From: Nodosilinea sp. E11
GTDB lineage: Bacteria > Cyanobacteriota > Cyanobacteriia > Phormidesmidales > Phormidesmidaceae
Assembly (NCBI RefSeq): GCF_032813545.1
Contig: NZ_CP136514.1
Location: 62,001 to 126,000, forward strand
Reading direction: 5' to 3'
DNA length: 64,000 nucleotides
Made by a program: the position numbers and the translations under genes. This document shows positions 14,191 to 60,723 of this stretch, one piece after another. Under the pieces are notes generated by a model. It searched no databases. It saw only the letters and a list, made by a program, of their open reading frames with translations, and was not told the DNA's origin. How positions within the stretch are numbered: position 1 is the stretch's first letter; each line of letters starts with the position of its first letter.

Positions 14191-15161
14191 GAACAGATAA
14201 AACTATGAGGGCATAGGCTAAGCAAGCTGTGTTCTCAAACATGGGCTAGAGCAGTACAACACCACTTTGAGATTGTCAGCCTTGGCCCTGTCGAGCGTCT
14301 GATCTCGCCCAGCAAGATCCACTACGCCCACATCTAGAGATGGGCCGATGCCTACCCCCATGCGATCGCCTTGACCAGATTGCGGCGGCGCTCACTAAGT
14401 TGTCTGAACTTGGGGGGCCAGTGCGAGGCGTTGACCTGCTCAAAAATAAGGAGCCAGGGGCATGAGCCAGCCGCAGAGCGATCGCACCCAGGAGAACATC
14501 CATGCGGCCACTGACCCGGCCCAATGCTCTGAGAGGGGCAGGCGAAATGGGTGGGAGTTAAAACATGTGAGGCGGAACGAAGACCCTATACTCAAGGTCG
14601 ATTGCGTGTTTTAGGGTGAACAAACTAGCTTTGAGGACACCCGCTATGGTGACTAACGAAACCTGGATCATCTACAAAGCAGACTCCAGTAGCGGCCCAG
14701 GGTGCGAGAGTCCTTACCCTGGCAGACCCCGGCAACGGCGTCACCCAGGGTAAGGATGGGGACTGAGGCGTGGCTGAAGTGCAGCAATTCAACAGCCCCG
14801 ACACCAGCATAAAGATTGTGATTTGTGTGTGGAGCCACTAGCCTATCGAGGCCCAATGGCAGGAGCTGCGACACGGTGCCCCCATCACCGCTGAGTCCCT
14901 GCCTGGGATGGCCCCGTAGCGCGATCGCACCCTAGTCTCTCTCTTCCCCATCAAGAACCCCCATGAACACCGCTGGCCCTGGCGGGGCTTTGTGTATCGA
15001 TCGCCTTGGCCTGCTTCATCTGGGGCTGAGCCTATTCCTCACCCAGCAAAAACCCTTTCGGGTTGAGGGAATAACATAGGTTTCTAATACCGCTATAAAT
15101 TTATTGACTGCTATAATTGAACGTCATAGATGATGCTGTTACCGCTCAACTGTCCATCGCT
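14191..15161. other. Gene-poor stretch with possible decayed coding remnants
   Basis: No intact gene is visible over about 970 bases. Around 14257-14365 one frame reads LGPVERLISPSKIHYAHI, then a stop, then RWADAYPHA, which faintly recalls DUF4336-type proteins. That identification is weak. HIP1-type sites occur throughout. Just before the next gene, TATAAT at 15112-15117 sits in two near-direct copies of GCTATAA, 20 bp apart, a plausible promoter/operator. Confidence 0.35.
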
Positions 15162-17069
15162 ATGGCCGCTCTATCTCAAACCTTCGACACCACCCGCGCC
15201 GAAATCGTCGCGGCGATGGAGCAGCGCATCGAAAACGGCGATCGCACTAAACTCACCAAAAAAGAACTGGAGGAGCTCATCGCTATCCTCGTCGCCAAGC
15301 TGGTGGAGATGAATGCCCTGGGCACGGACACCAAGGCGGCGATTGACCGGCTCTGTGCGGCGGAGCAGGAGCTTTTGGAAATGGCGTACCCGCGCAGTAG
15401 TATCAATTCGGTCTATTTCCCGCGCTATACCAAAGCGATTAAATCCGCGATCGAGGCCGGGCGTATCACCCTCAATGGCAAAAACTCGTACCCTCGCCGG
15501 TGGGTGAAGCGCAATCCGCTGCCGGGGGAGCCCAGCAGTGGCTCTGAGGCGCGGCACTATGCCTTAGACGGGTTTACGTACCCGATTGAGGTGCAGGCTC
15601 AGCTCAGAGCCGCTACGACCCAAAATGCCAATGCTCGTCAGGATGAGCGACAACCCGTCGATCTCGATGCCTACATGGACAAAATTAACCTCCTGTTGGC
15701 CTCCAATGACCCCATCGACTTAATCATCGCGATCGCGGCTGTTACCGGACGGCGGCATACGGAGGTCGTTAGCCTCGGGCAGCTCGAACCCTGCGTGGCG
15801 GATATGGCTCAGATGATTCCCCAGCAGCATCCCTATGTGCTGCGCTTTACCGGCCAGCAGAAGGCCGCTAAGCCTGCTTACAACATGCTGACCCTGGTGC
15901 CCGCTCAGGATGTCATGCTGGCGGTTGAAAAACTCAGGGCCTCCGCCGATGTTCGGGATTTAAGCGGCGTCGCCTCGGATGACCCTAGGATGGAGGCGCT
16001 CAACGCTCGGGTCAATCGCCGGGTGGTTAAGGTGCTGGGGGGGGTGCTGCCGACGCCTCAAGGGTTTACCAATATCTCGATTCATCGCTGCCGGGCAGTC
16101 TATGTGCCGATCGCGCTCCACTTCTTTTGCCCACCCAATATGGCGGAGCAGCGCCTGGCTCAGCATCTACTGGGTCATGTGCTGCTCGATGACACGACTA
16201 CGGGCAATGCCTCGGTGACGGGCCATTACTACCAGTATTATCTCACTCGCAATGGAAAGCCCCTGACGGCGCGGGGGGTGAAGTTGGCGGCGAGTGGCCC
16301 GATTCCGTTGCCGCCTGAGGAGTTGGATGCACCGGTTGAACAATCCTCGATAGAAACCCAAGGAGCGCTGATTGTGGCTGATTCTCTTCCCGCTAAGACA
16401 ACGCCGAGTCCGCAGGTTAATGGGTCAAGGGAGGGTGATCCGGTGTGGGTGACGATCTCCACTCAGGCGGCGACCATCTCGACTCAGGCCCAAACTATCT
16501 CGGCTCAGGCGGTGACGATTGACCGGCTGGCGCGCGCAGGCGGGGGACAGGGTGATGACTCGGAATTCAAAGCTCTCAAGGTCGAATATGACCGGCTTTT
16601 GGGGATGCTGGAGGAGTTGAGGGCGATCGCGGATGACCCTAATCAACTCCAGGCTGCTCAGCGCTTCTTTGACTTCGATTTTGACCGCGAGGGCCAGGGC
16701 GAGGGGGCTGTGCCAGCGGCGGCGGCACCGGCACCGACACGGGCTCAACCTGCTGCTGACAACCACGATAAGGCGCAAGGCACGAAGCCTTATCTGCGCG
16801 GGGTGCGGTTGCTTGAACTCGCTCGACTGTGGGCGCAGGAGCATCCCGATGAGACGGTTAAGTTCTCGGGGGCGTTACTTAAGGCGGTCGGCGTTCATGC
16901 GGCCGCGATTAAGGCCATCACCACGGATCTTGACGAGGACATCGAGGCCTTCAACAAATCCCTGGGTGATGACTCCCTCAAAACTCACAACAAGGGCAGA
17001 ACCGAGCCGTTCCTCAAATTCGCAGCCGAAAAACTTCAACAGGAAGGGCTCTATCAACCTAGAAGCTAA
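15162..17069 (+). CDS. Telomere resolvase (protelomerase)-like tyrosine recombinase
   Basis: 635 aa from the ATG at 15162. A TTG at 15117 would overlap a TATAAT box and is less likely. The central domain (about residues 165-390) lines up with phage TelK-type protelomerases. IAIAAVTGRRHTEVV contains the first catalytic Arg, and LRFTGQQKAAKP the beta-hairpin Lys. HRCRAVYVPIALHFF contains the HxxR box, and HLLGH is followed by a HYYQYYL stretch with the probable nucleophilic Tyr. Residues about 425-460 are a heptad-like TISTQAATISTQ coiled coil, and a C-terminal helical domain of about 110 residues (KPYLRGVRLLELARLW) follows. These enzymes convert replicated inverted-repeat telomeres into closed hairpins of linear plasmids. 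The alternative is a divergent Xer-type integrase. Confidence 0.7.
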   Translation: MAALSQTFDTTRAEIVAAMEQRIENGDRTKLTKKELEELIAILVAKLVEMNALGTDTKAAIDRLCAAEQELLEMAYPRSSINSVYFPRYTKAIKSAIEAGRITLNGKNSYPRRWVKRNPLPGEPSSGSEARHYALDGFTYPIEVQAQLRAATTQNANARQDERQPVDLDAYMDKINLLLASNDPIDLIIAIAAVTGRRHTEVVSLGQLEPCVADMAQMIPQQHPYVLRFTGQQKAAKPAYNMLTLVPAQDVMLAVEKLRASADVRDLSGVASDDPRMEALNARVNRRVVKVLGGVLPTPQGFTNISIHRCRAVYVPIALHFFCPPNMAEQRLAQHLLGHVLLDDTTTGNASVTGHYYQYYLTRNGKPLTARGVKLAASGPIPLPPEELDAPVEQSSIETQGALIVADSLPAKTTPSPQVNGSREGDPVWVTISTQAATISTQAQTISAQAVTIDRLARAGGGQGDDSEFKALKVEYDRLLGMLEELRAIADDPNQLQAAQRFFDFDFDREGQGEGAVPAAAAPAPTRAQPAADNHDKAQGTKPYLRGVRLLELARLWAQEHPDETVKFSGALLKAVGVHAAAIKAITTDLDEDIEAFNKSLGDDSLKTHNKGRTEPFLKFAAEKLQQEGLYQPRS

Positions 17070-17089: not shown

Positions 17090-17479
17090 TTAGGCGTCGT
17101 CTTCATTGCCCTCTTCGTCCAGTTTAACTAAGTGAATATGTTTATAGCCCAGCTTGATTTTGAATACGTCGCCGGTCTTCAGTCCCATCTCTTGGGTATA
17201 GGCTGCACCAATCACAATCTGTCCATTCTTGTGCACCGTTAGGGTATAAGTCGCTTCTCGACCTCGTCCCTCTGAACCCTTTTGGGGTTCCAGTTGAATG
17301 CCTTTGGCAGACAACAGGGCATCGTAAAACTCAGATAGGTTCACTCGGGTCTGGCCATCTTTGCTGATGGTGTAATACCCACATTCCTTGGCCAGTTCCC
17401 GTTTGCTCTGGCCATCATTCTCTTTCACCTTGGCCAGAAGTTCTTTGCCAACCAACACGCCTTTCTCTTTTACTGCCAT
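17090..17479 (-). CDS. cyAbrB-type transcriptional regulator
   Basis: 129 aa. The C-terminal half, YTLTVHKNGQIVIGAAYTQE followed by GDVFKIKLGYKHIHL, is the cyanobacterial AbrB DNA-binding domain. The N-terminal half carries KENDGQSKRELAKECGYYT. CyAbrB proteins bind AT-rich promoters and act as global repressors; plasmid-borne copies are common. The gene is convergent with the telomere-resolvase gene (20 bp between stops). It lies downstream of, and in the same direction as, the 220-aa membrane protein and ParA, so it could be the last gene of that operon or independently transcribed. The intervening 150 bp is AT-rich. Confidence 0.85.
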   Translation of the reverse strand: MAVKEKGVLVGKELLAKVKENDGQSKRELAKECGYYTISKDGQTRVNLSEFYDALLSAKGIQLEPQKGSEGRGREATYTLTVHKNGQIVIGAAYTQEMGLKTGDVFKIKLGYKHIHLVKLDEEGNEDDA

Positions 17480-17630: not shown

Positions 17631-18293
17631 CTAATCGTCCTCGACGATTCCCAGCCAAATTTCGATGCGCTCTAGACGGCGATCTACGGTTCCGCCACTG
17701 GCGCGGACGTCGGTAAGGGCGCTCTGAAACCCGCTGCCTCGGAAAATTAGGTACTGAAGCATTCCCATCACCGCTGCACCCACCAACACCCACACCACCG
17801 CTGCCCTCCACTGCGCGAGTTCAGTCCAAATCGACGTTCCGCTTCCGCTTCTCAGGGTGGCCCTGCGCTGAATCAACCGTCGCAGCGTCTGTAATTCCGC
17901 CTTGACCTCGGTTGCGCTCTGCGGATCGTTCACCGGGTGTACCTGGCTCTCGATTTTCTCCAGCTCCATGATCAAGTTGGGCAGCGAGGTCGCTAAGGTC
18001 GTGAATGGCCCTTCCGCCCGCTTCAACATCACCTCTGATGACACCAAGTATTGACTGAATCTGACTAAGTGTTCGCCTAGTGTCCTGTAGCCGCTGCTCA
18101 CCTCCGCTGTCTCTTGGGTGCGAACCTCCAACAGCCGCGATAGGCTCTGGGTGATCTCCTGCCATTGATCCAAACTCACGCGAATATGGGCAACGTCCTG
18201 CTGGTGAACTCGCTCTAGGGCTTCCATCCGCAGCAGCAGTTCATGCAGAACCGTTTCAATACTGGCAATGTCCTCCACGCTTGGCTGTCCCAT
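17631..18293 (-). CDS. Coiled-coil protein with one membrane helix, ParA-linked, unknown function
   Basis: 220 aa. Residues 1-150 are a long amphipathic, charged helical region with heptad character (SIETVLHELLLRMEALERV; ELQTLRRLIQRRATLR). One hydrophobic helix follows at about 165-187 (AAVVWVLVGAAVMGMLQYLI), then a short tail of about 30 residues ending in acidic VEDD. No known family is recognised. Its start codon directly abuts the ParA stop codon, with no spacer, so translation is probably coupled. A membrane-anchored coiled coil downstream of ParA could tether or position the segregation machinery; this is inference. Confidence 0.6.
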   Translation of the reverse strand: MGQPSVEDIASIETVLHELLLRMEALERVHQQDVAHIRVSLDQWQEITQSLSRLLEVRTQETAEVSSGYRTLGEHLVRFSQYLVSSEVMLKRAEGPFTTLATSLPNLIMELEKIESQVHPVNDPQSATEVKAELQTLRRLIQRRATLRSGSGTSIWTELAQWRAAVVWVLVGAAVMGMLQYLIFRGSGFQSALTDVRASGGTVDRRLERIEIWLGIVEDD

Positions 18294-19082
18294 CTACGCG
18301 ACCTCAGCCACTGGGGCCGGTAGACCCATCAACGCCCCTGCCGTCTCGATCTGCGCCTTACTACGCCGAACAAACGACCGCGCTAAGAGCTTGTCGCCCA
18401 ACGTCAGGCTATCGAGGGCCGTGAAGGGGATGTAGCTGGCTTGCATGGCTTTGAAGGTGGTGTCGGCCAACCGGGGAAGGTCAATCTCTACCCCGCCATA
18501 CTTCTTGAATCGCTTTCGGGCTTTCGACTCATCCCAGAAGGAAAACGAGTCGTCTGCGCCTTCAACCGCAAAATACTGGTTCTTAACCACCACCCAGCGA
18601 ACTGTATCACCGCAGAACTCTAGCATTCGGCCAATCGACTCGATCGGCCCGTAGCTAGCGCTGAGCACGCTGATTAACGTCACCTCGTAACCCATATCGC
18701 TACAGGCCGGAATGATGTCAAACAAATCTATTTGCTCCCGCAATTTTGTGCTTGAGGCGGCGGGCATATCCACCACCACCACATCAGCGGGACAGCGTTG
18801 GGCCAAAACGGGCAGCTGACTGGCGACTGAGGGGGTCAGCTCCCCTGACAGCAGCGTTACCAGGTTTTTGCCCCCTGTTAGCGATAGGCAGTCCATTGTC
18901 GGCACCGCAAAGCGTTCTGGGTCTGAGTGGAACGATGAAAACTCTGGGTTTTCCTGGTCTGAGTCAATGCCAATTACTTTAGCCCCGGCTTGCTCTAACG
19001 CCGTGTACAGCAACCGGGCAAACAGCGTTTTTCCCGTTCCTCCCTTCGCGCCATTGATAATATTGACTGTTCTAGTTGTCAT
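18294..19082 (-). CDS. ParA/MinD-family partition ATPase
   Basis: 262 aa. The deviant Walker A box GAKGGTGKTLFA (residues about 11-22) has the signature Lys of ParA/MinD ATPases. IGIDSDQENP is the switch region, and VVVVDMPAASS replaces the usual Walker B context. There is no N-terminal helix-turn-helix, so it is a small, type Ib-like or SIMIBI ParA. It would drive plasmid partition with a centromere-binding protein. The flanking 174-aa basic protein upstream and the large repeat array beyond it are the candidate partner and centromere. It is transcribed leftward with both neighbours. Confidence 0.85.
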   Translation of the reverse strand: MTTRTVNIINGAKGGTGKTLFARLLYTALEQAGAKVIGIDSDQENPEFSSFHSDPERFAVPTMDCLSLTGGKNLVTLLSGELTPSVASQLPVLAQRCPADVVVVDMPAASSTKLREQIDLFDIIPACSDMGYEVTLISVLSASYGPIESIGRMLEFCGDTVRWVVVKNQYFAVEGADDSFSFWDESKARKRFKKYGGVEIDLPRLADTTFKAMQASYIPFTALDSLTLGDKLLARSFVRRSKAQIETAGALMGLPAPVAEVA

Positions 19083-19114: not shown

Positions 19115-19639
19115 CTACAAACCACTGATGTGAACCGGCGGGGTGAAGCCGGGTCGCCGGGGTACTTGAAAGCCTCCATGAGCATCAGCCGCTTTTTTCC
19201 TCTTTTTACCGGCAGTGACAACGGTGTCCTTGGGAATCTCAGCAACGGTTTCTTCGGGACTGGCAGAATCCACCTCTGGCGGCAGGTCGTCTACCGTCGC
19301 CACTTCAACTACAGGTGGTGACTTGATGGCACTAGGTTTGCTCTTGCTCTTCTTCCTTTTCTTACTACTAGAGGTAGCCTTGATGGCATAGTAGTAACTC
19401 TTCAAAGTGGATGAACTGATAGAAATCTTCTGACTGGTAACAGCCTCAAAGGAATCCATCAAGTGAGTTGCAGCAATACCCCAGTCCTTCTCTGTTTTCC
19501 TAAACAAAGTGATTTGCTTAAAACATGACTTAACAACGTCATAAGCTGTTATCTCATCATTTATGACTGCTGATTCTTGCGGAAAAGTGGCAGAAAAGTG
19601 ATTACTTATCTTGCCTCCAAGAGACTCATCTAAAGCCAC
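19115..19639 (-). CDS. Small basic protein beside ParA, candidate centromere-binding protein
   Basis: 174 aa, unrecognised. Residues about 25-85 form a compact helical domain (AYDVVKSCFKQITLFRKTE, SQKISISSSTLKSYYYAIKA) whose last segment looks like a recognition helix. A Lys/Ser-rich patch follows (SSSKKRKKSKSKPS), then a disordered acidic/proline tail with a second basic patch (GKKRKKAADAHGG). It lies 32 bp upstream of parA in the same direction and starts 60 bp from the repeat array. That order (centromere, binding protein, ATPase) mirrors some plasmid partition operons. Function is inferred from context only. Confidence 0.55.
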   Translation of the reverse strand: MALDESLGGKISNHFSATFPQESAVINDEITAYDVVKSCFKQITLFRKTEKDWGIAATHLMDSFEAVTSQKISISSSTLKSYYYAIKATSSSKKRKKSKSKPSAIKSPPVVEVATVDDLPPEVDSASPEETVAEIPKDTVVTAGKKRKKAADAHGGFQVPRRPGFTPPVHISGL

Positions 19640-20405: not shown

Positions 20406-20622
20406 GGAAGTAGAATTTTTAGGGCAAGTAGTGGCTAGACAGCACTATTACCGCTGATTTATACTGACAGTAACAGCAGAAAATCTTTCCATGGAATTCG
20501 CCTGCTCATGACCTGGGGCTTACCGCTCAAAACTTACTTCGGATAGTAACTTACGAATATCTCCCCAATATCGAAAAATCGCCTTTCTGGACAAAGAATT
20601 GTTAAGTATTTCTATACCAGTC
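20406..20622 (+). promoter_or_regulatory. Region between the array and mob genes, candidate oriT/promoter
   Basis: 217 bases without a gene. It contains paired AACTTAC motifs near 20540 and 20558 and an AT-rich run before the mobC-like start. An origin of transfer usually lies next to the relaxase-accessory gene, so this is the best place for oriT, but no nic site can be named from the sequence. Confidence 0.3.
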
Positions 20623-20955
20623 ATGAATACCTCGCGCACCAAACGGATCGTTGTCTACGTTTCTGAGGCTGAGGCCAAGGCCATTAACCGGGCGGCTAAG
20701 CCAACAAAGGCGGCAAGCTTCCTCCGCACGCTGGGCCTCTGTCCCCCAACAGTTTCAGTTACCCATCGCGATCTCTACGGCCACGTCAGTCGATTGAATA
20801 AGGCATTGGCTGAGATTGAAGAACGCTATGCCACCTCAGCACCCCCCGCTATGCTCCAAGCCTTGAAAGACCTATATCAGTCGAACCTTGAGATCCAGCG
20901 CACCTTGATACCCGTCAGCCCAGGCGAGGACAATCATGATCATCAAGATGGTTAA
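20623..20955 (+). CDS. MobC-like relaxase accessory protein
   Basis: 110 aa from the ATG at 20623; a TTG at 20599 in the same frame is less likely. The N-terminus RTKRIVVYVSEAEAKAINRA followed by KAASFLRTLGL has the ribbon-helix-helix look of MobC/MbeC accessory proteins. The C-terminal half is helical (LNKALAEIEERYAT). It overlaps the relaxase gene by 20 bp, so the two are translationally coupled. Its role would be to bind oriT and assist relaxase loading. It lies just right of the repeat array. Confidence 0.7.
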   Translation: MNTSRTKRIVVYVSEAEAKAINRAAKPTKAASFLRTLGLCPPTVSVTHRDLYGHVSRLNKALAEIEERYATSAPPAMLQALKDLYQSNLEIQRTLIPVSPGEDNHDHQDG

Positions 20956-22105
20956 GGGCCGTAACGCCCACGGTCTGTGTTCTTATCTACTTGACCCAAA
21001 CAAGGTCAATAGCACCCAGCCCCTCATCATCTCCAACATGGCTTGGAGTGACCCTAAGGATTTGGCGCGTGAATTTAATTGGGTCGTCTCTCGCCCTCGG
21101 GATCGACAGGTGAAACAGACCATGGCTCACCTGATGGTCAGCCTCCCACCGAGCGAACACGTCGATACCCATCAGATCGCTCTGATCTCCCTGAAAATAT
21201 TGGACAGCATGGGCCATGGGGGCTGCCCCTTCTTCGTCACTGAGCACCACGACAAGGAGGCGGTCAATGGCGTGCAGCATTGGCACATTGCGACCTCCGC
21301 CATCGACTTAGAAGGCAATCGCGTCAATGACAGCTTTAGCAGGCTCAGACTCCAACGTCTGGCGCGGCAGCTAGAGCAGGAGATGGGCCTTATGCCCCTC
21401 GATGTTGCCCCAGATAGCCAGCGCCGTAACCTCTCCACTGGCGAATGTCGGCGCAAAGAACGCACCGGGGAAACGTTGCCCAAGGAAACGATCTGGGATG
21501 AGATTGACTGCGCCACCCACGACAACCCCACCATGGCTATGCTGGTAACCCGGCTCAAGGCGAGGGGGGTTGAGGTTCACCTGCGAAAAGCTTCAAATCC
21601 TGGGGATGGGCCTGCCTTTATCGGTATTTCCTACGCTGTTGATGGCCATTCTTTTTCCGGTCGCCGATTGGGGCCTGCTTACTCGATCAATGGTCTTCAA
21701 AAGCACCGACAGGTTGAGTATCGTCCTGACCAAGATGAGGCGCTGGCTCAATTAATGGCGATGAATCAGGCCCAGTGTCAGCAGCTCCTCACCGATTACG
21801 AGGCGTTTCAGCAGCTCTGGAAGGAACACTACGCTCATTATTCTAAGGTCGCCCAAGGCGGCTCTGGTGAGCCCCAGGGGAGACAACTCGATGCCGACGT
21901 TGCCCGGCTGGCTGCCTCAGAAGAAGAATCCATTTTTTCCGTTGTGGGTATCCTCCGGCAGGGGCCAGTGGCGCAAGCCCTGCGCCGCAACCAGGGCCAC
22001 TATGCGGCGTTGGAGTACTGCCAAGAAATCGCTCATCAACTGACTCACTGTCAGAGTGAACCCGAACTTCAGTTAACCCAAAAAGCCCTAGAGATTGAGC
22101 TTTAG
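20936..22105 (+). CDS. MOBP-type relaxase (MobA/VirD2 family)
   Basis: 389 aa. Relaxase domain at about residues 1-165: MIIKMVKGRNAHGLCSYLL with the early Tyr, TMAHLMVSLPP, and the metal-binding region VQHWHIATSAIDLEGNRVND, the HxH-type motif of VirD2/MobA relaxases. The remaining part (about 170-389) is charged and helical, with no primase or helicase domain visible, so this is a short mobilisation relaxase. It nicks oriT and pilots single-stranded DNA into a conjugation channel supplied by another element. It is coupled to the mobC-like gene. A group II intron follows 84 bp downstream. Confidence 0.85.
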   Translation: MIIKMVKGRNAHGLCSYLLDPNKVNSTQPLIISNMAWSDPKDLAREFNWVVSRPRDRQVKQTMAHLMVSLPPSEHVDTHQIALISLKILDSMGHGGCPFFVTEHHDKEAVNGVQHWHIATSAIDLEGNRVNDSFSRLRLQRLARQLEQEMGLMPLDVAPDSQRRNLSTGECRRKERTGETLPKETIWDEIDCATHDNPTMAMLVTRLKARGVEVHLRKASNPGDGPAFIGISYAVDGHSFSGRRLGPAYSINGLQKHRQVEYRPDQDEALAQLMAMNQAQCQQLLTDYEAFQQLWKEHYAHYSKVAQGGSGEPQGRQLDADVARLAASEEESIFSVVGILRQGPVAQALRRNQGHYAALEYCQEIAHQLTHCQSEPELQLTQKALEIEL

Positions 22106-22793
22106 CTAAAACTGTGTTTTCTGAAGCATTGGCCATGAGCACTTATGCTCTGTGCCAGTAGCGCTCAAACGTGGACTAGCTTTGGACTGTGCGACCCGTT
22201 CGCTCGAAATGAGTTGAAAGACTCAGGGATGAGCGGCAAGGAAAGTGCCCAAGCGCACCTTGACAACTAGATAACCGTGTAGGTGAGAGCCCATATCTCA
22301 ATGCGCTCAAGTCCTACCCCCTAGGTGCAAGGGTGACAGCCTATTCCCCACTCAGCGACTGGCTATCAACGGGTGAAGCGGGAATAAAAGGCGGTAACCA
22401 GGGAGCCTCACCTGGAATCCCGTCGAGCACGAATGTATGGAGAGCGAACGCGAAGATGCGTAGCCATCGTTAACTAGAACCAGTCGCCGAGGCCAATCGA
22501 CTGGGGCCAAAAGGCAAAGGATAAGGGGCTGACCTACGGTCCAGGGATCAGTAAGCACTCCCGATAAACCCGGTGGATAGCATCCTCCTAACCATTCAAC
22601 CAACGGTTATCTGGAACGGGATAACCTGCTACGACTCTCTCAAGCAACGGTCGATAGCTTGAGTAGGTGCCAAACCGCAAGAGCGTAGCAGGCAGGATTG
22701 CCTAAGAAGCAAAGGCCCAGCCGAAGGGCTGGGATAAGCTGACGTAGGCACGATGATGCAAAAGATAGAGTGGCAAGTCGCAGTACAGACGTC

Positions 22794-24500
22794 ATGAACA
22801 CGTCCTTTACGACGATGTATGAATGGCACTCGCTGCCCTGGCGCAAGCTAGAGCGGCAGGTGTACAAGCTGCAAACGCGAATCTATCGAGCCTCCCGTCG
22901 TGGCGATGTCAAAACAGTTCACAGATTGCAACGACTCCTACTAAAGTCCTGGGCAGCCCGATGCCTAGCTGTGCGCCGGGTCAGTCAAGACAACCAGGGA
23001 AAACGAACCGCTGGGGTAGATGGCGTAAAGTCACTGAACCCATTACGTCGGATTCTTCTGGTCAAACGATTGAGACTGACCGATAAAGCTCAACCCACTC
23101 GCCGAGTATGGATTCCCAAACCCGGTAAGGAAGAAAAGCGCCCGCTCGGTATTCCAACAATGGCCGATAGAGCCCGACAAGCGCTGTTGAAGCTGGCGTT
23201 GGAACCCGAATGGGAAGCCCGATTTGAGCCCAATAGCTACGGGTTCCGCCCAGGACGCTCAGCCCACGATGCGATAGAGGCCATCTTTAACTGCATCCGG
23301 ATTACTCCCAAGTACGTTCTGGACGCGGATATTGCGCAGTGCTTTGACCGCATCAGTCACCAAGCCCTGCTGCAAGAGCTCAACGCTCCGCCCCTGATTC
23401 GTCGTCAGGTCAGAGCGTGGCTCAAGGGGGGAGTGATGGAATCAGGGCAGTGGTTTCCAACCGAAGAGGGCACTCCCCAGGGAGGAGTTATCTCCCCATT
23501 GCTAGCCAATATCGCCCTACACGGAATGGAACGCCGAATCAAACAGGTGAGCCCTAAAGCGCATCTGATTCGATATGCCGATGACTTCGTCATTCTCCAC
23601 GAACAGCTTGACGTCATTCAAGCCTGCCAGCAGGCCATTGTCTCCTGGCTAGCCGAGCGAGGCTTAGCGCTACAGCCAAGCAAAACCCGGTACTCGCACA
23701 CCTTGCACCCGTATCAGGGCAATGTGGGATTTGACTTTCTGGGGTTTACAGTCCGGCAAAACCGGGTCGGTAAACATCAGTCCAAGTCCCACCTTGGCCA
23801 CAAAACGCTCATTACGCCCAGCAAGGCGAACCTAAAACGACACCTAGCGCAAGTTAGGTCTATTATCCAGGCTTATAGAGCAGCACCACAAAGTGCGCTG
23901 ATTCGGGTACTCAACCCGGTTATCCGAGGCTGGACGAATTACTACGCCTCTGGCGTCAGTAAGAAGACCTTTCAGAAAGCGCAGTGGCAGACGTTTTGGA
24001 AGCTATGGCGATGGGCGACCCGTCGGCACTCCAACAAGAGTCGTCAGTGGGTCGCGCGTAAATACTGGCACCAGTCCCAATTCTCGACCAGCGATGGCAA
24101 GAGTCGGCTCATCAATCACCAAGACACCGCCATTAGGCGACATGTCAAAGTGAAAGCCGACAGAAGCCCTTACGACGGGGACTGGCTCTATTGGAGTCAA
24201 CGCCTAGGCAAGCACCCTGAACTCCCGACCCGAGTTGCGGTCTTACTAAAACGACAGTCAGGGAAGTGCCCAGCCTGTGGTCTGTATTTCAGGGCAGAAG
24301 ACCGGATGGAGGTAGACCATGTCCTACCCCTTTGCCAGGGAGGGGACAACCGATACTCTAACCTGCAACTTCTGCACCGACACTGTCACGACAACAAAAC
24401 GCTAAGCGATTTGAGGAGGTCTGCCTTGTCAAGGCATTGCATTGTTGAGGAGCTAGATGAGGGGAAACTCTCACGTCTGGTTCTGAAGACGAGCCGTTGA
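22794..24500 (+). CDS. Group II intron reverse transcriptase/maturase with HNH endonuclease
   Basis: 568 aa from the ATG at 22794; a GTG at 22770 is an alternative. Reverse transcriptase landmarks: GVDGVKSLNP, YGFRPGRSAHDAI, GTPQGGVISPLLANIALHG and the catalytic IRYADDFVI. A maturase X domain follows (WTNYYASGVSKKTFQKAQW), then an HNH endonuclease: CPACGLYFR, MEVDHVLPLCQGG, NLQLLHRHCHDNKT. All key residues are present, so the protein may support both splicing and retrohoming. The stop codon lies beyond domain V, so the last ~17 codons are encoded by the ribozyme core itself. Confidence 0.93.
   Translation: MNTSFTTMYEWHSLPWRKLERQVYKLQTRIYRASRRGDVKTVHRLQRLLLKSWAARCLAVRRVSQDNQGKRTAGVDGVKSLNPLRRILLVKRLRLTDKAQPTRRVWIPKPGKEEKRPLGIPTMADRARQALLKLALEPEWEARFEPNSYGFRPGRSAHDAIEAIFNCIRITPKYVLDADIAQCFDRISHQALLQELNAPPLIRRQVRAWLKGGVMESGQWFPTEEGTPQGGVISPLLANIALHGMERRIKQVSPKAHLIRYADDFVILHEQLDVIQACQQAIVSWLAERGLALQPSKTRYSHTLHPYQGNVGFDFLGFTVRQNRVGKHQSKSHLGHKTLITPSKANLKRHLAQVRSIIQAYRAAPQSALIRVLNPVIRGWTNYYASGVSKKTFQKAQWQTFWKLWRWATRRHSNKSRQWVARKYWHQSQFSTSDGKSRLINHQDTAIRRHVKVKADRSPYDGDWLYWSQRLGKHPELPTRVAVLLKRQSGKCPACGLYFRAEDRMEVDHVLPLCQGGDNRYSNLQLLHRHCHDNKTLSDLRRSALSRHCIVEELDEGKLSRLVLKTSR
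24450..24484 (+). ncRNA. Group II intron domain V
   Basis: A 34-35 nt hairpin starting GAGCTAGATGAGG, with a GGAAA-type tetraloop region and closing CTCACGTCTGGTTCT. This is the catalytic domain V of the intron. It overlaps the coding frame of the maturase. Confidence 0.8.
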
Positions 24501-59656: not shown

Positions 59657-59702
59657 AGTTGTGTTGATAAATGTGCGATCGCAACGGTTTGTAACTCCGC
59701 CC

Positions 59703-59733
59703 TAGACTCTTTAGTTAGCTAGAGAGTCTAGGG
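59703..59733. promoter_or_regulatory. MerR-type dyad operator, between methyltransferase and DUF305 genes
   Basis: Arms TAGACTCTTTAG and CTAGAGAGTCTA form a dyad with a TTAG centre. On the + strand TAGACT and CTAGGG are 19 bp apart. Both this site and the one before copA are followed by GGTAAAGCAA/GGTGAAGCAA. The dyad is nearly symmetric, so it could serve the leftward methyltransferase (start 59656) or the rightward DUF305 gene. Confidence 0.65.
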
Positions 59734-60119: not shown

Positions 60120-60695
60120 ATGGATAGCAGCAAACAAACTACCGCAGAACATGCGGGTGCTGATCAGCACCAAGGAATGCAGGGTAGTTACATTAGATAC
60201 TTTGCAATGATTGGCACCTCAATCGTTGTGATGTTTTTCTTGATGTATCTGCATTCGTACCACATTTTTGATCATGCCCGGCTTAGTGAAACACGACTCT
60301 TCATGGCACTGATCATGGGTGCTGCCATGATGGTAATTATGCTGTCATACATGCTGCATATGTATAAGAGCCGCAACATTAACATCGCCATCTACCTAAG
60401 CGCCCTTGTGCTGTTTGGCGCTTCACTGTGGCTGGTGCGCAGTCAGATTACGGTGAGCGACGTCGATTATCTAGAAGGCATGATTCCTCACCACTCAATT
60501 GCTATTTTGACCAGTGAGCGAGCCCAGATTCAAGATCTTCGTGTGCGTGAACTGGCCGATGAAATCATCGAAGCCCAGTGGCAAGAGATCAGAGAGATGG
60601 AGTGGCTAATTTCTGACATTCGGGAAAATGGTTTGGTTGCTGCACAATCTGAGCTAGAAGCAAGACCGATTCCAGATTTCTCGACAGCCCCCTAG
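60120..60695 (+). CDS. DUF305 membrane protein
   Basis: 191 aa. Three transmembrane helices (about residues 26-48, 60-80 and 88-108) are followed by an external DUF305 domain with YLEGMIPHHSIAILTSERAQ and ELADEIIEAQWQEIREMEWL. The HH and Met-rich pattern is thought to bind metal; the family is common beside copper-resistance genes in bacteria. Start ATG at 60120 preceded by GGAGAAG. The MerR-type operator of copA overlaps its stop codon, so copA can be transcribed separately. Confidence 0.85.
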   Translation: MDSSKQTTAEHAGADQHQGMQGSYIRYFAMIGTSIVVMFFLMYLHSYHIFDHARLSETRLFMALIMGAAMMVIMLSYMLHMYKSRNINIAIYLSALVLFGASLWLVRSQITVSDVDYLEGMIPHHSIAILTSERAQIQDLRVRELADEIIEAQWQEIREMEWLISDIRENGLVAAQSELEARPIPDFSTAP

Positions 60696-60723
60696 ACTCT
60701 CTAGCGCACTAGAGGGTCTAGGG
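60693..60723 (+). promoter_or_regulatory. MerR-type operator/promoter of copA
   Basis: TAGACT (-35) and CTAGGG (-10) are 19 bp apart, with the dyad arms TAGACTCTCTAG and CTAGAGGGTCTA around CGCA. The sequence is close to PbrR/CadR/ZntR-type sites in the MerR family. It lies 38 bp before the copA start and overlaps the DUF305 stop codon. Confidence 0.72.

Follow-up and report, generated by a model that had tools for sequence, protein, structure and literature searches.

The window analysed here, a stretch of 64,000 nucleotides, corresponds to bases 62,001-126,000 of contig C1 (497,759 bp) of Nodosilinea sp. E11. On its forward strand lies a complete open reading frame (15162-17069) that starts with ATG and encodes a protein of 635 aa; an alternative TTG start is present at 15117, and close homologues begin at the ATG. 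The protein matches PF16684, the catalytic domain of ResT and TelK in Pfam, with an E-value of 9.1e-40 and 136.6 bits against a cut-off of 27, the match covering residues 163-347 (15648-16202). The remaining three Pfam matches were weak and under their cut-offs, and PHROGs returned two families of unknown function (E 3.6e-20 and 2.9e-13). When the PDB was searched with the single sequence, TelA (E 0.005) and ResT (0.047) were found, and a profile of eight cyanobacterial homologues retrieved TelK (3.8e-15), TelA (9.7e-13) and ResT (5.1e-8). Up to E 1, the profile matches included no Xer, Cre or phage integrase, the rest being unrelated coiled-coil and other proteins, and no integrase family was matched in Pfam, PHROGs or the PDB profile search. 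The HMM comparison thereby upheld the membership in the telomere-resolvase family that had been proposed from the sequence-only reading. The protein is almost certainly a protelomerase, judged by its family matches, and protelomerases seal linear DNA ends into hairpins. Its close relatives are found in Nodosilinea nodulosa PCC 7104, Phormidium tenue FACHB-1052, Leptolyngbya sp. FACHB-60, Nodosilinea sp. LEGE 07298, Nodosilinea sp. LEGE 06152 and two MAGs.

The order of motifs noticed at first sight is indeed present in full: AAVTGRR (residues 192-198), TGQQK (230-234), HRCR (308-311), LLGH (336-339), HYYQYY (355-360) and TISTQAAT (431-438). R197, R198, K234, H308, R311, H339, Y356 and Y359 are invariant in 8/8 aligned cyanobacterial homologues, two of which come from the same genus. 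This invariance, together with the PF16684 E-value, places the motifs beyond chance. The TelA residues named in the excerpted text of the source are Arg255, Lys286, Tyr363, Arg366, His394 and Tyr405 (PMC3558466). Using the homologue alignment, the PDB alignments to TelA and an inferred chain-numbering offset of 20, we mapped Arg198 (15753-15755, forward strand, as are all following residues) as the putative counterpart of Arg255, Lys234 (15861-15863) of Lys286, His308-x-x-Arg311 (16083-16094) of Tyr363/Arg366, and His339 of LLGH (16176-16178) of His394. The R-K-(H/Y)xxR-H-Y catalytic set is thus kept in 8/8 homologues and aligned to TelA, with the tyrosine assigned from spacing only. On that spacing, the likely nucleophile is the invariant Tyr356 (16227-16229), which would correspond to TelA Tyr405, with Tyr359 as the alternative; the tyrosine follows the LLGH histidine at +17 in our protein, at +10 in the insert-free homologue L024 and at 11 in TelA. 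A structure model built from 10 close sequences reached a mean pLDDT of 40, so that the predicted coiled coil and C-terminal helical domain are of low confidence. The muzzle and stirrup domains had initially been treated as a hallmark that the fold should show, but they are no requirement of the family, because TelA is described as lacking both in the excerpted text (PMC3558466).

The genes downstream of the protelomerase gene support the plasmid-type module that had been supposed. On the reverse strand, an AbrB-like protein (17090-17479; PF14250, E 2.1e-30) is followed by an unknown protein with weak matches to helical families only (17631-18293), a ParA/MipZ-like ATPase (18294-19082; CbiA, E 4.7e-7) and an adjoining unknown protein with no Pfam match (19115-19639). 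The forward strand encodes a NikA-like mobilization protein, weakly matched below the cut-off (20599-20955; PF21983, E 2.2e-4), and a MobA/VirD2-type relaxase (20936-22105; PF03432, E 6.6e-21). Directly beyond the relaxase gene, at 22770-24500, lies a group II intron reverse transcriptase/maturase with an HNH domain. Two alike imperfect 34-bp inverted repeats of the CCCTAGACTC...GAGTCTAGGG type occur about 1 kb apart at 59700-59733 and 60690-60723. A palindrome scan of the window gave four matches, each with a score of 12, and none contained the telomere core described below.

The genome (G000) comprises 6.1 Mb in seven contigs and carries three PF16684 genes: the window copy at 77.6 kb of C1, a C-terminally shortened copy at 487 kb of C1, and one at 158.8 kb of C7. 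C7 (5,458,963 bp) holds the sole 16S rRNA gene and the sole dnaA found in the genome and is for this reason taken as the chromosome. The beginning of C1, compared with the reverse complement of its other end, is 99.9% identical over 6,884 bp, and the ends of C7 are likewise inverted relative to each other (6,555 bp, 99.985%). C1 and C7 have 4,587 bp of their ends in common at 98.9% identity, and farther inward the two sequences diverge, so the C7 ends are no simple copies of those of C1. Among the best 40 of 60 candidates, the outermost 1,000 bp of C1 matched the genome 12 times, and none of these matches was farther than 6.6 kb from the nearest of the four C1/C7 ends. Inverted ends of at least 200 bp (E 1e-15) were absent from 13 other contigs, namely C2-C6 of the same genome, two of G009 and six of G014, which has no protelomerase gene. 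An assembly break at one repeat copy was considered as the source of these ends and discarded, since it would yield direct rather than inverted repeats; C1 and C7 should hence be linear or closed via head-to-head junctions. The sequence 13-20 kb inside the right C7 end matches the main contig of relatives, for instance G009:C1 at 5.55 Mb, which shows this end to be joined to chromosome-type DNA.

The sequence-only reading had raised the possibility of a linear replicon, and the telomere-like inverted repeats at its ends do make C1 look linear. From these terminal sequences, C1 is very probably linear with hairpin ends, and C7, the main chromosome, is probably linear too. Across 23 stretches of 20 kb taken from C7, neither GC skew nor coding strand showed a clear origin/terminus pattern. 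Near the right C7 end, a KdpA portion and a KdpD sensor portion are fused in a single ORF (L009:3185-4366), and phage-tail-like genes for sheath, hub and baseplate J lie directly inside the left C7 inverted repeat (L008:7324-15853).

A palindromic target had also been proposed, and complete palindromes were found at the very ends of relatives' contigs, but the assembly of the strain itself contains half-sites only. The relatives' contigs terminate exactly on perfect 36-44-bp palindromes with GGAATTCC or GGATATCC at the centre. Phormidium tenue contig15 (172,842 bp) carries perfect palindromes of 36 and 44 bp at its two tips, one at each, from base 1, and its ends are alike but non-identical (76% over 1.8 kb, 86% over 6.6 kb). 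Leptolyngbya sp. FACHB-60 contig83 has a perfect palindrome of 42 bp at its end and Nodosilinea sp. LEGE 06152 Contig_29 one of 36 bp at its start. Among 38 contig tips tested, three showed a palindrome with arms of 18-22 and 35 had arms of at most 5. Across 26 genus genomes, the core TTTTTTGGNNNNCCAAAAAA was found three times, never more than 12 bp from a contig end, as opposed to none for the reversed control. Such contig-terminal palindromes are what reading round a hairpin turn would give.

The half-site occurs four times in the genome of the strain, once by each C1/C7 end and 3.1-4.0 kb from it. The intact palindrome is unseen there because the true tips of C1 and C7 are unassembled; we estimate that roughly the outermost 0.6-1.6 kb of the four tips is missing, assuming that the outer telomere segment equals the inner one. 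In other genomes, the half-site turned up once in G003, where it adjoins a transposon end, and once in the interior of a contig of G011, a genome without a protelomerase gene. A perfect 50-bp palindrome on the 11.6-kb contig C6 (L015:9079-9128) was set aside as a target, being made up of GATTAATC repeats in an array that lies 2.5 kb from the end of the contig.

The inverted ends of C1 and C7 carry tniQ, tniB and tniA (L004:649-3779 and the equivalent places at the three other ends), with TniQ (5.5e-7) and TniB (8.9e-28) domains and with rve and Mu-transpos_C on the third gene. When all 37 candidates were scored (37/37), the 2,571-bp transposon core was present in four full copies, one per C1/C7 end and 100% identical, and in four partial matches, which are also sub-telomeric; no copy was found elsewhere in the genome. 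The identity of the four copies may stem from homogenisation of the ends. The right end of the transposon, ...CACGCGACA, adjoins AATTCCAAAAAACTCTAGAC, the palindrome centre in a telomere half-site. Of the two flanks on which Tn5053/Tn402-type transposons would show a 5-bp target duplication, the right one is fixed, with the junction ACA|AATTC; the outer telomere segment, located beyond the transposon, has the inner segment's orientation. A similar transposon end adjoins ACTTCCAAAAAACTCTAGAC in G003:C18, and the same end stands beside a candidate worn half-site in G022:C593 and in an inner copy in C1. Of 14 other sub-telomere stretches, two contained fragments resembling tniA, namely those of G022:C593 and of the Gloeocapsa plasmid start.

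Elements of the Tn5053 family enter res sites, aided by the resolvase of that site (PMC7765201, in part). The transposon described here shares tniA, tniB, tniQ and insertion at a recombinase's own site with these Tn5053/Tn402-type "res-site hunter" elements (PMC7765201, in part). It differs in that its target is the telomere palindrome instead of the res site of a serine resolvase, and in that full copies occur at telomeres only. By analogy, the transposon may use the protelomerase as its Tn5053 relatives use resolvase.

A PF16684 gene was present in 7/23 genomes of the same genus (11/38 over the whole set) and in 15/386 sampled cyanobacterial genomes; the gene scan covered 23 of the 26 genus genomes screened for the sub-telomere element. 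With 19 candidates scored per genome, the element was matched in 7/26 genus genomes, and G009 and G021 were left out of the count for having matches of 31-46 bp only. The remaining five genomes (G000, G003, G004, G019 and G022) all carry the gene (5/5), and G009 and G010 have the gene without the element. In G004, G009 and G022, and for the second C1 copy, the distance from the gene to a contig end is about 3-10 kb, against 77 kb for the window copy; with several contigs too short, this nearness means little. In Nodosilinea nodulosa PCC 7104, the gene is 6.5 kb from a contig end at which the telomere element is absent. Synechococcus elongatus, included as a control genome, also gave a PF16684 match above the cut-off. 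None of 65 candidate stretches on viral contigs was confirmed, and phage records gave weak matches only, in Vibrio phages.

Several plasmids in other cyanobacteria have comparable ends. Gloeocapsa PCC 7428 pGLO7428.02 (201,822 bp, recorded as linear) has the same 36-bp palindrome at both ends and an identical inverted repeat of 1,340 bp. In a Gloeocapsopsis dulcis plasmid recorded as circular, a perfect palindrome with the same centre spans all 3,024 bp fetched, and in plasmids 4 and 7 of Fischerella NIES-4106, which are also recorded as circular, the ends are exactly inverted over 2,828 and 1,491 bp. Judging from these ends, the three plasmids (L169, L170 and L175) look like end-joined linear hairpin plasmids. 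The Nostoc plasmids pNPM9 and pNPM10 carry protelomerase genes, with a 192-bp near-palindrome across the ends of pNPM9 and inverted ends of 957 bp in pNPM10. In G110, which has two protelomerase genes, the 17 loci scanned included contig-terminal palindromes of 106 bp (L157:1-106, at the C53 start) and 38 bp (L162:10114-10151, at the C59 end), one centred on AAATTAACGGAC as in Nostoc and the other on TCATGA as in the TelA target. Neither a terminal palindrome nor inverted ends were found in Gloeothece verrucosa Cy782202, which has the gene and is recorded as linear, and no such ends were present in Calothrix PCC 7716 plasmid p8 or Nostoc UHCC 0926 pn6, both with the gene; the G. citriformis and G. 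verrucosa records likewise lacked the palindrome pattern. The single-contig genome G067 contains, at about 2.11 Mb of its 4.68-Mb contig C1 (L152:7111-13269), a perfect palindrome of 6,159 bp with arms of 3,079, a 1-bp spacer and two divergent protelomerase genes, possibly representing a telomere junction that has been closed.

In a tree of 22 catalytic regions, to which a long-branch warning applies, the enzymes associated with GGAATTCC or GGATATCC ends fall into one 12-row clade (98/99), which also includes five rows without a known end. The enzymes from Nostoc and Fischerella, associated with two other centres, group in a separate clade (100/99). Hairpin-ended linear replicons occur in Borrelia, in Agrobacterium, in some phages and as small Nostoc plasmids. 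TelA from Agrobacterium tumefaciens C58 resembles our protein in its catalytic domain and residues and, for ours putatively, in having a chromosome-sized linear replicon as substrate. Unlike TelA, our protein has a long C-terminal region, and it scored 26.3 bits against the cut-off of 800 of the TelA equivalog model NF052462; the telomere centre also differs from the TCATGA given for TelA in the excerpted text (PMC3558466), and the putative substrate is perhaps the main chromosome, whereas that of TelA is a chromid. TelK from phage phiKO2 and ResT from Borrelia are, with TelA, the best PDB profile matches, but the match is confined to the catalytic region and the setting is neither phage-like nor Borrelia-like.

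The linear plasmids of Nostoc sp. N6 are likewise cyanobacterial and have inverted ends (PMC5987646, in part), and the excerpted text infers their hairpins from palindromic reads and a coverage drop (PMC5987646). They differ in being small (about 22 kb), in their telomere centre AAATTAACGGAC and in the clade of their enzyme. The enzyme of Gloeocapsa sp. PCC 7428 pGLO7428.02 is 41% identical over 64% of the query, and its replicon shares the centre of the 36-bp terminal palindrome but differs as a 202-kb plasmid with other palindrome flanks. For Cyanothece 51142, a 430-kb linear chromosome is mentioned in an excerpted text in which the words "telomere" and "resolvase" are absent (PMC5987646). 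One excerpt also counts cyanobacteria as bacteria whose linear chromosomes end in hairpins, giving no reference at that word (PMC3558466), and linear plasmids of Rhizobiaceae have been described by the same reasoning (PMC13293297, in part). The excerpts of PMC8987985 and PMC4443254 contain nothing further on the subject. Among the matches listed from the open-access literature, most subscription journals being outside this scope, the text available described neither a hairpin-ended main chromosome in cyanobacteria nor a transposon aimed at telomere sites.

Taken together, we propose, with a probability of roughly 80%, that the enzyme resolves the replicated hairpin telomeres of linear C1 and probably those of the linear chromosome C7. 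Replication from an internal origin would run round the hairpin ends and generate head-to-head junctions. A dimer of the enzyme would bind the junction palindrome, which measures 36-44 bp in this group with TTGGAATTCCAA or TTGGATATCCAA at its centre, and both strands would be cut near the centre via the tyrosine, then refolded and resealed as two hairpins. The substrates would be the ends of C1, the enzyme's own replicon, and probably the ends of C7, because the C7 end repeats are nearly the same as those of C1 and C7 has its own copy of the gene. We infer from sequence that the ends are covalently closed, that the enzyme is active and cleaves near the centre, that the window copy acts on the C1 and C7 ends, and that C7 is linear in the cell; this is the one genome in which putative chromosomal telomeres were seen. 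We suggest more tentatively, and with less than even odds, that the main chromosome acquired its hairpin telomeres by capture from a plasmid, and that a Tn5053-type transposon that aims at the resolution palindrome and lives at telomeres contributed to transferring them between plasmid and chromosome and to homogenising them.

Of the alternatives, the one that survives best, though we regard it as unlikely, is that linearity is confined to the 498-kb replicon and plasmids like it and the enzyme serves plasmids alone, the chromosome being circular and the C7 ends being either fused or integrated head-to-head telomeres or an assembly error. In the other examples, the telomeric contigs are indeed plasmids or short contigs, and G067 carries its long perfect palindrome with two protelomerase genes inside a 4.68-Mb contig; the missing tips of C1 and C7 and the 98.9% likeness of their ends make exchange or mis-assembly thinkable. 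However, the inverted orientation of the repeats, the divergence of C7 from C1 farther inward and the chromosome-type DNA 13-20 kb inside the right C7 end argue for telomeres that belong to C7. It is highly improbable that protein caps, as in Streptomyces, protect linear ends, with the protelomerase being incidental. Long inverted terminal repeats do occur in protein-capped linear replicons of this type as well, but the perfect palindromes from base 1 on relatives' contigs fit hairpins and not free ends, and the gene is present in all five genus genomes with the telomere element. Slightly less probable still is the reuse of the enzyme for dimer resolution on a circular replicon, an option entertained at the outset. 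The adjoining partition and mobilization genes would fit it, but it found no support, as C1 has inverted ends of 6.9 kb and the catalytic residues are all kept. An ordinary Xer-type or phage integrase is scarcely credible; these too are tyrosine recombinases with a residue order similar to that of protelomerases, but the profile searches matched no integrase family.

The family to which the enzyme belongs is already known; what appears to be new is its apparent use on the main chromosome of a cyanobacterium, together with a telomere-bound transposon. At least three public plasmid records called circular look like end-joined linear plasmids. If the transposon has indeed settled at telomere-resolution sites, it would represent a new target choice for the Tn5053 group. 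If resolution of hairpin telomeres by the protelomerase does extend to the main chromosome, replication, segregation and end protection in a linear phototroph genome would become directly testable, with species of the same genus that lack the gene as natural controls and the palindromes as ready substrates.
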